Source: Balneolaceae bacterium (lineage in GTDB: Bacteria > Bacteroidota > Rhodothermia > Balneolales > Balneolaceae). From it: DNA of 34,442 nt. The stretch covers positions 1 to 34,442 of the forward strand of contig SLJB01000015.1 in NCBI GenBank assembly GCA_007135335.1, written 5' to 3'. Every line of letters begins with the position of its first letter. The stretch's first letter is position 1. The position numbers and the translations under genes are program-made. A model generated the notes under the pieces. That model worked only from the letters and a program-made list of their open reading frames with translations, was not told where the DNA came from and did not search any database. Below, piece after piece: positions 3,311 through 7,670 of this stretch.

Positions 3311-3748
3311 ATGAGAAGAATCAACACTTATAAATGTATGCTTCTGCTTACAGGCTTCCTGCTTTTTTCATCAGCCTGCAGCGACAACGGCGTAGGCGCC
3401 ACAAATGATGAATTAACCGCATGCCTTGGGGAAACAATACCGTTTCCTGCAACCGGAACTATCACGGCGTGTTTTGGGCCCCAGGCCGAGCTGATTAAAG
3501 GTGCTCTGTTTGAGCCCGGTATATCCTGGTCTAAGACGCTGGATTTCTTTTCGGATAAGTACAGCTCCAGAGGCTGGAACTTAACCCGGGAAAATATCCC
3601 AACCGAAACCGCCGGTGAACGGACTGCTGAATGGACAGCTATGGGTAGTGACTTTGATGTTGTTATTTCTATCACAGCCTTTGGAGATAGTGGTACCGGA
3701 TTTATGGTAGGTACAATTGGGATATATCAGAAGGGAACCGCCAATTAA
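3311..3748 (+). CDS. Small lipoprotein of unknown function, 145 residues
   Basis: The signal peptide ends at lipobox SSAC and the mature part starts with the island's common SDN. It is not a clear paralogue of its neighbours. The mature part has two Cys (in LTACLGE and ITACFGP), then a segment LDFFSDKYSSRGWNLTREN followed by beta strands. This pattern is seen in many small bacterial lipoproteins, where a helix leads to a 'GW' strand; it gives no function. It lies 30 bases after the preceding gene and 102 bases before the next. Confidence 0.75.
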   Translation: MRRINTYKCMLLLTGFLLFSSACSDNGVGATNDELTACLGETIPFPATGTITACFGPQAELIKGALFEPGISWSKTLDFFSDKYSSRGWNLTRENIPTETAGERTAEWTAMGSDFDVVISITAFGDSGTGFMVGTIGIYQKGTAN

Positions 3749-3850
3749 CAAAAGCATTAGCAGATTAGTAATTTTGAGCAAACCCCTTTTCTTAAGCCCT
3801 TTTGATAACTATTCCGTAAAGACAGGGTTTTTCAAAATAAACTTTATTCT

Positions 3851-4465
3851 ATGAACAATTTAATACGGGTTTTAGAGATGATATCCACTTCGATCAAATT
3901 TGTACTGATGCTCCTCTTCTTCACAGGGGTATTATTTGTCGGTTGCTCAGATAACTCATCGGGTACTGAATTCGGAGACAATGATCTTGGCGAAGTTACC
4001 TTCACCATCAGCGGGGATACCGAGGGTGAGTCAACCGGTGCTGCATTTTTTAATTACCAGCCGGGTGAGTCGGGAGATGAAACTGCCTTTGAACTGATCT
4101 TTATGGATGGTTTTGGCGGCCCGCAAACGTATGCGTTTTATATATCCCGATATCGCACGGAACCGTTCAGTATTCCAACACCCGGAACTTATGAGATAGA
4201 TGGCAGACCCTTCAACTTTACGGCCGGTTATGAGTACACCTCCGGTACATTTACAGGAACAGACAGATACACCGATCAATATTGTGAAGAGGCAATTGAA
4301 CAGGGAGGCGAGCTTGTGATAAGCAGTTCATCAAGCTCTCAGGTTACCGGAAGTTTTCGTTTCCTGGTTGCCGGATTTGACGACCTGAATGATTGCAACC
4401 TTCTTGGGTATGTGGAATTGTCAGGGAATTTCAGGGCGGTGCCGTACGAAAACAGTTTCTTATAA
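3851..4465 (+). CDS. Small lipoprotein, member 2 of a paralogous family
   Basis: A 204-residue protein with a lipobox of the form FVGC followed by SDNSSGTE. It shows the family series: VTFTISGDTEGESTGAAFF, PQTYAFYIS, TPGTYEID, QGGELVISSSSSSQVTGSF, and a late NDCNLLGYVELSGNFRA. The two late Cys (YCEEA and NDCNLLG) match Cys in the 4497 and 5943 copies and could form a conserved disulfide in the periplasm or on the surface. An alternative start at Met10 (3878) would leave a more typical signal peptide. Function unknown. It is 31 bases upstream of the next paralogue. Confidence 0.8.
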   Translation: MNNLIRVLEMISTSIKFVLMLLFFTGVLFVGCSDNSSGTEFGDNDLGEVTFTISGDTEGESTGAAFFNYQPGESGDETAFELIFMDGFGGPQTYAFYISRYRTEPFSIPTPGTYEIDGRPFNFTAGYEYTSGTFTGTDRYTDQYCEEAIEQGGELVISSSSSSQVTGSFRFLVAGFDDLNDCNLLGYVELSGNFRAVPYENSFL

Positions 4466-4496
4466 ATCACACTTAATAAAAATAACACAAATAAAT

Positions 4497-5102
4497 ATGT
4501 TTAGAAGTATCCAAACACGATTGTTAATTATCATTTTTGTCATTTCTGTCGCTGCCGCTTGTTCAGATAGTTCCTCAGGCCCTGATCTCGATAATAGCCC
4601 GGGGCAGGTTTCACTCACCGTAAGCGGCGATGTTCAGGGTGAAAAAACGGGAATGGCCGATTTTTATGGCGGCGAGCCCGGGGGGCAGGGCATTCACTAT
4701 TGGGAGTTAAGCTTTAATGATTTCAGTCCGCAAACTTACTCACTGCAGCTTTCATTAACAGATTTTGATGAAATCCGGCGGCCGTCTCCGGGTAGTTATG
4801 AAATTGGCTTTGAACCGGGAAATCCATTTGAGGAACAAGGTGAGCCCCTATTTTTTGGCATCTACACGCATATCCCCAATGGCAGCTTTTCAAACGCAAT
4901 GGAATTTGATACAGGGCTGTTCTGTGTGGATGAAGGACCCAGAGGCGGCACCCTGGTGATAACCGGCTCAAGTTCCGAGGCAGTGTCAGGGTCATTCTCA
5001 TTTAAAGCCGCGAACTATGATTTTGATGATTCAGGTAATTGCATATTACAGGGTGAGATAGAAGTTACCGGAGAATTCAATGCAAGGGCTCGTCAGTTCT
5101 GA
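4497..5102 (+). CDS. Small lipoprotein, member 3 of a paralogous family
   Basis: A longer frame opens at 4389 inside the previous gene, but the ATG at 4497 is chosen because it starts directly with the signal peptide MFRSIQTRLL and ends in lipobox AAAC. This gives 201 residues. Family motifs are complete: VSLTVSGDVQGEKTGMADFY, PQTYSLQLS, RPSPGSYEIG, GGTLVITGSSSEAVSGSFSF, DFDDSGNC and IEVTGEFNA. It is the closest relative of the 5943 gene, also at DNA level: a TTCATTCTCATTTAAAG stretch is shared. The two conserved late Cys are present. The A-rich leader resembles that of the 2693 gene. Function unknown. Confidence 0.82.
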   Translation: MFRSIQTRLLIIIFVISVAAACSDSSSGPDLDNSPGQVSLTVSGDVQGEKTGMADFYGGEPGGQGIHYWELSFNDFSPQTYSLQLSLTDFDEIRRPSPGSYEIGFEPGNPFEEQGEPLFFGIYTHIPNGSFSNAMEFDTGLFCVDEGPRGGTLVITGSSSEAVSGSFSFKAANYDFDDSGNCILQGEIEVTGEFNARARQF

Positions 5103-5162
5103 TAGAACCTGATAAACAACATTTTGAACCAAAACAATCAAGAACAAACAAAAACCTAAACC

Positions 5163-5717
5163 GTGATGAACCATAACAAACTACTTCGCATCCTTTATAT
5201 AGTAATTCTGATAGGCGTAACGGCCGGCTGTTCAAATAGTGATGAAACCCGTGGAGATATTGGAGAGGATGGGATAACTCAACAACAAGATTCTGCTAAT
5301 CAGGCAGAACGTGAAGTAGTTGGAACCATTTCCTGGGGTAGCTCGGAACCGCAACCACTGCATGAGGTTCGGTGCGGATATAGAGGAGATGAATATATTA
5401 TGAATGCTTTGGGTGACAATTTTAACTTACGAATCTATTTTCGTGATCCGGATGGTGGAACTTCTGTCGATTTTTCAAGACGCAGGTCTTTTGATCTGAG
5501 ATTTGATCAAAATCATCAATATTCTCAGGCCAGATTCTACTACCCGAATTTTTTGGAGAGCGAAGGGCATTTTTCAGCCTCACCTGAAGGGGCAAATGGA
5601 GAGGCTGAACTGATAAACCCGATAAATGTGAGCGGCGTGGATATTGGTGATTTGGTGGGATCCACTCTCAGTTACGATTTTACATGCTCTCATGATCTTA
5701 ACAGAAGCCGTCTTTAG
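5163..5717 (+). CDS. Lipoprotein of unknown function, 184 residues
   Basis: The signal peptide ends in lipobox TAGC, followed by SNSDETRGD. The mature part begins with a polar, probably unstructured linker rich in Gln and Asp, then a beta-rich region with two Cys (in EVRCGYRGDEY and DFTCSHDL). It lacks the motif series of the paralogous family, so it is an unrelated or strongly diverged member of the island. It follows the previous gene by 60 bases and ends before a 225-base gap, so it may close the first operon. Function unknown. Confidence 0.75.
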   Translation: MMNHNKLLRILYIVILIGVTAGCSNSDETRGDIGEDGITQQQDSANQAEREVVGTISWGSSEPQPLHEVRCGYRGDEYIMNALGDNFNLRIYFRDPDGGTSVDFSRRRSFDLRFDQNHQYSQARFYYPNFLESEGHFSASPEGANGEAELINPINVSGVDIGDLVGSTLSYDFTCSHDLNRSRL

Positions 5718-5760
5718 AAATTTATATTATGGCGTAATCTTCAAAGTTTAGCAGTTTCCG

Positions 5761-5928
5761 CACTTTTTTTATACCTGAAGGCAATTCTCCATTAAAAAGG
5801 GTCTTTAAAAAAGTGTTACGGCGAATGAACTGTTTCTCAACTTTTTTTCGCGTTTAGTTCATCGGGTTTCAAATAGATATCCGGATAGATGCTATCAGCC
5901 ATTGAAATGCCTTCCAGTCATGGCTGAT
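5761..5928 (+). repeat. Three inverted repeats in the gap before the fourth paralogue
   Basis: The 225-base gap 5718-5942 has no gene. It holds CACTTTTTT (5761-5769) with AAAAAAGTG (5807-5815), ATGAACT (5825-5831) with AGTTCAT (5856-5862), and ATCAGCCAT (5894-5902) with ATGGCTGAT (5920-5928). The last pair ends 14 bases before the start codon. They could be a leader structure, an attenuator or operator sites; none has a clean terminator T-tract. Confidence 0.5.
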
Positions 5929-5942
5929 GCAATATCAAAACA

Positions 5943-6566
5943 ATGAACAAACTAAACGTGGATAAGATGAAAAAGAAAAATAAATTCAAAGCTTTATTGC
6001 TGTTGACGGGTCTGTGCCTGGTAATAACTATGGCAGTTTCCTGCTCAGATAATTCCGCAGGCCCTGATGATGGCCCGGGTGGAAAAGGGCAGGCATCCTT
6101 CACCATATCAGGTGCAGTAAGCGGACAAAAAACCGGTGTAGCTGAGTTTTACAACTTCTCGGCATTTGGTATTCACACCTGGACAATCGATATATATGAT
6201 CTTGGCCCGAGTACCTATGAGTTGTCACTTTTCAAGGTGTCCAACTCGCCAATAAGCAATCCTGCACCCGGAAGCTATGATCTTGGAAATGACCTCTTCA
6301 CCAATGATGGGTTTGTTGCTACATATACTGACGGTGTAGGCCCGAATTCAACGGAGTATTCCCCGATCTTATCAGCTCTGTGTCCGGGTGTTTCGGAAGA
6401 TGAAGGCGGCACACTCATTATCGAAAGTTCGAATAATGATCGCATAAAGGGTTCATTCTCATTTAAAGGCAGTGATTTCGACTTTGATGATAATGGAAAT
6501 TGTGTTGTGCTTGGTACAGTTACCGTTTCAGGCCAGTTTAATGCAACCAAAACAAATCTCGATTGA
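5943..6566 (+). CDS. Small lipoprotein, member 4 of a paralogous family
   Basis: A 207-residue lipoprotein with lipobox AVSC followed by SDNSAGPDD. A second start at Met9 (5967) would give the more usual MKKKNKFK signal-peptide beginning. Family motifs: ASFTISGAVSGQKTGVAEFY, PSTYELSLF, NPAPGSYDLG, EGGTLIIESSNNDRIKGSFSF, DFDDNGNC, VTVSGQFNA. Both late Cys are conserved (ALCPG and GNC). It is separated from the other copies by the unrelated 5163 gene and a structured 225-base gap, so it may be transcribed independently. Function unknown; an anchored beta-sandwich-like envelope protein is a reasonable inference. Confidence 0.82.
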   Translation: MNKLNVDKMKKKNKFKALLLLTGLCLVITMAVSCSDNSAGPDDGPGGKGQASFTISGAVSGQKTGVAEFYNFSAFGIHTWTIDIYDLGPSTYELSLFKVSNSPISNPAPGSYDLGNDLFTNDGFVATYTDGVGPNSTEYSPILSALCPGVSEDEGGTLIIESSNNDRIKGSFSFKGSDFDFDDNGNCVVLGTVTVSGQFNATKTNLD

Positions 6567-6582
6567 TTTGACTCAGAGGTAA

Positions 6583-6629
6583 TTTCGGCATACATTATAT
6601 ATACAATATATGTGTGATGTATGCCGAAA
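6583..6629 (+). promoter_or_regulatory. 21-pair hairpin enclosing the radical SAM start codon
   Basis: TTTCGGCATACAT (6583-6595) is perfectly complementary to ATGTATGCCGAAA (6617-6629). Inside, 6596-6603 pairs on with 6609-6616 through five Watson-Crick and three U-G pairs, leaving a loop of only five bases (6604-6608). As plus-strand RNA this gives 21 continuous pairs. The ATG of the next gene (6621-6623) is in the right arm. No T-tract follows, so it does not look like a terminator. Confidence 0.75.
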
Positions 6630-7670
6630 CCAATACATGGCCGTGGTGCCGCAGGCAATCCGAGAAACCGTTTTTGCGATACCCTTCTTGAATATGATGT
6701 AGATGAGGTTACCGGCAGGCTGAATCATCCGGGTACTACATTAATTGAGGATCGAACCACTCAAATTATCTCCCGAAACAATAGTCCCGATATCGGTTTT
6801 AATGTAAGTGTAAACCCATATCGCGGTTGCGAACACGGCTGTGTGTACTGTTATGCACGGCCCACGCACGAATTTCTTGGAATGAGTGCGGGACTCGATT
6901 TCGAATCGAAAATTGTGGTTAAATACAATGCTGCAAAATTGCTTCGAGATGAACTCTCCAAACCATCATGGAAACCGCAAACCCTGGTAATGAGTGGCGT
7001 TACCGATCCCTATCAGCCCATTGAGAAGAAGCTGCAAATTACACGCGAATGTGTGGAAGTTCTGGCAGAGTGCTGCCATCCGCTGGTTATCATCACAAAA
7101 AATTATCTTGTTACCCGCGATATGGATCTGCTTACGAAACTGGCCGAAGTTAATGCAGTTCGGGTGTTAATGTCGATAACTTCCCTCGATAAAACCATTA
7201 CTGATACAATGGAGCCGAGAACATCCAGGCCTCAAAAACGTCTGCAAGCGGTGCGTGAATTAAGTTCAGCAGGAATACCCGTTCATGTGAATATTGCTCC
7301 GGTCGTCCCGGGGTTAACAGATGATGAAATGGTACCCATCATGGAAGCATCTGCAAATGCAGGAGCACAATCGGTTTCTCTGGTCAATCTGAGATTGCCG
7401 TACGGTGTGAAGGATCTGTTCGATAAATGGCTTGAGGATCATCATCCCAACCGAAAAGAAAAAGTGCTGAATCGATTAAAATCTCTGAAAAGTGGTAAAT
7501 TGAATCGTTCAGAATTTGGTGAAAGATTCCGTGTAGATGGTCCGTATGGTGAGCAGATGATGCAGCTTCTTTCCATTCATTCCAAAAGACTTGGCTTAAA
7601 CGGGCAAAAGGTTGCGCTGAATACAAAGAACTTCAGGCGTCCTCAGACCAAGCAGTTATCTCTATTTTGA
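6621..7670 (+). CDS. PA0069-type radical SAM protein (SplB-like)
   Basis: A 349-residue radical SAM enzyme. The CxxxCxxC cluster motif is CEHGCVYC (Cys70, Cys74, Cys77), which binds the 4Fe-4S cluster that cleaves S-adenosylmethionine. The N-terminal HGRGAAGNPRNRF and the VNPYRGC lead-in are typical of the PA0069 family, distant relatives of spore photoproduct lyase (COG1533). The reaction is not established for this family; DNA repair has been suggested only by homology. The N-terminal match supports the ATG at 6621 even though it is buried in a hairpin. The gene is 54 bases after the lipoprotein island and is likely regulated separately. Confidence 0.88.
   Translation: MPKPIHGRGAAGNPRNRFCDTLLEYDVDEVTGRLNHPGTTLIEDRTTQIISRNNSPDIGFNVSVNPYRGCEHGCVYCYARPTHEFLGMSAGLDFESKIVVKYNAAKLLRDELSKPSWKPQTLVMSGVTDPYQPIEKKLQITRECVEVLAECCHPLVIITKNYLVTRDMDLLTKLAEVNAVRVLMSITSLDKTITDTMEPRTSRPQKRLQAVRELSSAGIPVHVNIAPVVPGLTDDEMVPIMEASANAGAQSVSLVNLRLPYGVKDLFDKWLEDHHPNRKEKVLNRLKSLKSGKLNRSEFGERFRVDGPYGEQMMQLLSIHSKRLGLNGQKVALNTKNFRRPQTKQLSLF

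Follow-up and report, generated by a model that had tools for sequence, protein, structure and literature searches.

Results

The window, that is, the whole 34,442-nucleotide stretch of Balneolaceae DNA analysed here, carries at 6621..7670 on the forward strand a gene for a PA0069-family radical SAM protein of 349 amino acids (NF033668, E 6.4e-136, 453 bits against a cut-off of 360; Pfam Radical_SAM). Its closest named relatives in public genomes are found in Balneolaceae MAGs. The annotated ATG at 6621 is very probably correct, because orthologs begin at the same position. In the literature on Rv2578c, the titles found concern matters other than the function of that protein. Upstream on the same strand, the list of open reading frames places a lipoprotein-like gene at 5943..6566, whose stop codon lies 17 nt 5' of the hairpin described below. 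A scan between this stop (6566) and the radical SAM gene returned no terminator-like site, and the lipoprotein-like gene is the likely source of read-through RNA. It closes a series of tandem lipoprotein-like ORFs on one strand (window 3311-6566, with starts at 3311, 3851, 4389, 5163 and 5943), several of which have similar N-termini with a CSDNS-like lipobox at their end. The four ORFs scanned gave no Pfam match above cut-off.

A hairpin at 6583-6629 spans the start of the radical SAM gene. On the forward strand, its left arm (6583-6603) contains the end of the promoter spacer, the -10 element and the left LexA half-site, the loop has five bases (6604-6608), and the right arm (6609-6629) contains the right LexA half-site, the start codon (6621-6623) and codons 2-3 (CCG AAA). 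The 21 pairs comprise 13 perfect outer pairs and eight inner ones, three of the latter being U-G (T6596-G6616, T6598-G6614 and T6600-G6612). The fold reaches z = -4.7 in a frame of 101 nt (dinucleotide shuffles, 0 of 200 equally stable) and z = -7.7 in a tighter 63-nt frame. The initial annotation had described a hairpin of 21 pairs and a 5-base loop over the ATG, lacking a terminator T tract, and the sequence, the fold and the terminator scan bear out this description. An intrinsic terminator was dropped as the identity of the hairpin, given that the scan found no T tract after the stem. A genome search located the sequence once in its Balneolaceae genome; with this single copy, a repeat or mobile element is ruled out. 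At gathering score, the window also lacked a match to any Rfam family, and hence to any known riboswitch or thermosensor.

The loop and inner stem are filled by a LexA box, TCACACATATATTGTATATA, at 6598..6617 on the reverse strand, with the half-site TATGTGTGA at 6609-6617 in the right arm. It agrees at 16 of 20 positions with the published Balneolaeota consensus TTACACATATTTTWTACATA and is the top match to that consensus across the 34-kb window. Orthologs score 15-18 of 20, and the box of the window is among the weaker ones. According to PMC7739468 (2020), the LexA of Balneolaeota binds the direct repeat TTACACATATTTTWTACATA, as tested by gel shift, and its regulon includes LexA, RecA, polymerases, a helicase, an SOS peptidase and a radical SAM protein. 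In our comparison, the motif common to the upstream regions of same-genus orthologs is TATATGTRCAAAATATGTGTA, not the stem sequence, and TATATGTRCAAAATATGTGTA is the reverse complement of the published repeat. Most of the family Balneolaceae retains the box upstream of this radical SAM gene, and the motif pattern gave 99 matches in 59 related genomes, against a single match for the reversed control. Within the genome itself, sites lie 5' of genes for a Y-family DNA polymerase and a UvrD-like helicase and of a small gene adjoining the SRAP gene, with a weaker match near recA; in relatives they lie 5' of lexA, Y-family polymerases, a umuD-like gene, recA and others. A LexA accounts for the only S24 peptidase match in the genome (TIGR00498 above cut-off; LexA_DNA_bind and S24 domains), and a weaker box stands 11 nt 5' of the lexA ATG. 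Further afield in the family and order, the LexA box may stand 16-80 nt before the gene, off the start codon. Judging from these sequence matches, 6598-6617 is very probably a LexA operator, and the radical SAM gene is most likely controlled mainly through SOS repression of its transcription. The operator itself is already known (PMC7739468); the box here has the same direct-repeat sequence and the genome likewise encodes a canonical LexA.

The 11-bp repeats had suggested a CarH/LitR light operator as a first idea, which was abandoned when SOS genes turned out to neighbour the box and the published LexA consensus came to light. The light-responsive operators of CarH/LitR likewise consist of 11-bp direct repeats across the promoter (PMC9304148), whereas the regulon and the consensus here fit LexA. 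As for a B12-binding MerR regulator, the sole MerR_1 (PF13411) match in the genome is a frame of 128 amino acids, too short for CarH.

Two further observations concern SOS boxes. In genus g7 of the same family (L029, L185-L188, L192, L195, L197, L211, L213; further loci in this observation are L257-L262, L264, L267-L269), the usual LexA box is absent before the radical SAM gene and the palindrome TGACACNATGNTGTCA is present instead. This palindrome also has a match about 56 nt 5' of recA in the six genomes searched, and is absent before the several, divergent LexA-like genes of g7 that were examined; a switch of the SOS box to TGACACNATGNTGTCA in this genus is possible. In L039, positions 1203-1490 of the reverse strand encode a 95-residue protein (..INVLNVIRGF..HHITPYRFET..) that adjoins SRAP and has a perfect LexA box upstream; relatives occur in L222, L236, L242 and L247, and the protein has no match in NCBIfam or Pfam.

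The promoter scan placed a -35 element, TTGACT, at 6568..6573 and a -10 element, TACATT, at 6591..6596, both on the forward strand, the latter being also conserved and lying inside the left arm. Of 18 same-genus promoters, the window included, 15 have TTG at a spacing of exactly 17 bp from the -10, and the layout TTGAnn-17-TAnATT recurs throughout the genus at a nearly fixed distance 5' of the LexA box. With the -10 element in the left arm, this spacing predicts a transcription start in the loop, at 6604 on the forward strand, approximately 7 nt after the -10 and 17 nt before the ATG. An mRNA from the gene's own promoter would thus have a leader of about 17 nt without the hairpin, and the left arm, if the promoter is right, would be transcribed only by read-through. 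We consider it probable, from the conserved promoter, that transcription begins inside the hairpin.

Comparison with relatives indicates that the stem exceeds chance, that its arms co-vary and that it is specific to radical SAM promoters. Across the window and the three promoter sequences nearest to it, two of which come from a single genome, 96.4% of cells are paired, and both sides have changed at three outer pairs. The alignment of orthologs proposed in the initial annotation as a search for compensatory changes shows arms that change together. They vary between genomes and yet follow each other, for example TTTCGGCAT/ATGCCGAAA, TACAGG/CCTGTA and GGCA/TGCC, with compensatory changes keeping the left arm in step with the start codon and codons 2-3. 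Swapping spacers between genomes weakens the fold (summed energy -289 vs -222 kcal/mol, p < 5e-5; p = 0.0002 without the group of the window). Spacer-only shuffles gave a combined p of 2e-15 over 35 promoters, and of 6e-5 (n=11) or, without the window, 0.002 (n=10) over a non-redundant same-genus set, combined values that are overstated given that the relatives are not independent. The start codon lies in a paired arm across many lineages with unrelated arm sequences. One bin, G010, contains the radical SAM promoter in two versions (L228 and L013), which differ at three left-arm positions and have identical right arms; the second copy of the gene runs off the end of its contig.

The pairing excess was absent in control genes, namely 20 from the window (the hairpin gene included) and 54 others, with a median p of about 0.5. 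It was equally absent in 42 genes, most of them with a LexA box (median p again about 0.5), which rules out the stem as a general SOS feature. Three same-genus orthologs (L010, L012 and L024) have a good box, yet no excess pairing. In terms of accessibility, the start codon has a median probability of being unpaired of 0.06 in read-through RNA, compared with 0.34 in RNA from the gene's own promoter and 0.45 in control genes, the occlusion in read-through RNA differing from control genes with p 1e-5; for the window, the predicted values are 0.00 in read-through and 0.33 in own-promoter RNA. Pairing also varied with the orientation of the upstream neighbour. Promoters with a divergent neighbour showed no excess (p 0.41-0.93), against a median of about 0.07 for co-directional ones (Mann-Whitney p 0.006; 0.013 in the non-redundant set), a comparison that includes only four divergent cases, takes orientation from ORFs alone and leaves out L016 as ambiguous.

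Discussion

Our results suggest an SOS-controlled promoter that carries its own shield against read-through, a reading to which we assign a probability of about 0.6. LexA bound to its direct-repeat operator would overlap the -10 element, the transcription start and the stretch just 5' of the start codon, and would keep the radical SAM gene repressed until LexA is inactivated by DNA damage. Once the promoter fires, the mRNA would begin in the loop, have a leader some 17 nt long that lacks the left arm, and be translated. RNA reading through from the co-directional lipoprotein gene would instead carry the left arm, with the spacer and the -10, which would pair with the start codon and codons 2-3 and prevent translation. 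Leak transcription in the absence of damage would in this way leave the gene silent. The computation shows the hairpin, the operator, the promoter layout and the co-varying arms with their specificity. The start site, the binding of LexA at 6598-6617 and the silencing of read-through RNA are steps that we infer, and a shielding function of the stem is, from the pairing data, at slightly below even odds. The dependence of stem strength on neighbour orientation is in line with a shield against co-directional read-through.

The initial annotation had taken the U-G pairs as an argument for selection on the mRNA over a DNA operator. Over 35 promoters, G-U does outnumber A-C by 32 to 6. Nevertheless, G6612, G6614 and G6616 all belong to the right LexA half-site and are constrained as DNA, so the three pairs are uninformative on RNA selection; the operator that had been discounted, and whose LexA identity had been missed, accounts for them. 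Outside the LexA box, G-U and A-C are even among the four closest sequences, and with no G-U excess there, selection on the RNA is not proven. The proposal that the stem hides the start codon held, at a level beyond chance. Its placement in the gene's own mRNA is probably wrong given the predicted start in the loop, and a start within the hairpin (around 6604, from the conserved promoter) is what that annotation had itself named as incompatible with its proposal.

The main rival to the shield is template switching during replication, which copies one arm onto the other at a quasi-palindrome; the operator and the promoter would then be real and the outer stem functionless. The central quasi-palindrome, made up of the -10 and the LexA box, would arise from the promoter layout, an origin that would also explain the lack of the stem at other SOS genes, and the non-coding left arm could simply trail drift in codons 2-3. 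Template switching is reported, in the available part of PMC8794818, to create and maintain RNA hairpins, with which this scenario is consistent, as it is with the absence of a G-U over A-C bias outside the LexA box. We regard it as unlikely, although it deserves to be taken seriously: start codons are paired in many lineages despite unrelated arm sequences, and a replication error is blind to the orientation of the neighbour, which stem strength follows.

A translational switch in the gene's own mRNA, as the initial annotation proposed, whether a thermosensor or a stem opened by a protein or an RNA, would need a promoter further upstream. A stable, co-varying stem across the start codon is what such a switch predicts, but the conserved promoter places its -10 inside the left arm, the window lacks an Rfam match, and in distant family and order members the LexA box may stand 16-80 nt away from the gene; we hold this to be very improbable. 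The least probable of the explanations, in our judgement, is that the stem stabilises or terminates the 3' end of the lipoprotein gene (5943..6566). The stem does begin 17 nt past that stop codon, and an ORF on the same strand, with its end some 55 nt upstream of the ATG, is likewise present in the two closest orthologs. Against this role, the T tract is absent, stems are present even where the upstream gene is 150-300 nt distant, and the arms follow the start codon together with codons 2-3.

In the insertion sequences IS10 and IS50, RNA entering from outside forms a hairpin that hides the translation start. The read-through shield proposed here resembles them in placing the hairpin in incoming RNA, and differs in that the element is not mobile. 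A closer likeness is found in phage T4, where the leader hairpins of gene e (lysozyme) and of I-TevI cover the start region and have late promoters within the 5' strand of the stem, and where long read-through RNAs are silent and own-promoter RNAs are translated (PMC3014915). Here too, by sequence and conservation, the 5' strand of the stem contains the promoter (-10 at 6591-6596), and the start codon is predicted to be hidden in the long RNA only. The T4 promoter is a phage late promoter, whereas the present one is a sigma70-like promoter of a cellular gene, repressed by LexA, and its silencing is predicted. The available portions of PMC7739468 cover the operator and do not mention the overlapping start-codon hairpin. 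As far as these papers show, a co-varying start-codon stem laid over an operator is a new form of the T4-type design. We tentatively propose, at somewhat less than even odds, a chromosomal SOS promoter that insulates itself through an upstream half whose complementarity to the start codon and first codons is maintained; leak RNA from neighbours would then stay untranslated and only transcripts made after LexA clearance would be translated. With similar caution, and by analogy, this would represent the design of T4 gene e in a cellular DNA-damage gene, with compensatory change across a bacterial family.

Sequence conservation places the PA0069 radical SAM family, which is widespread and of unknown function, in the SOS response of Balneolaceae, and this placement brings its likely role closer to DNA damage. 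Should the shield be real, it would offer a compact route by which a tightly repressed gene escapes read-through expression, and comparing promoter spacers with start codons would be a way to look for similar designs in other genomes.
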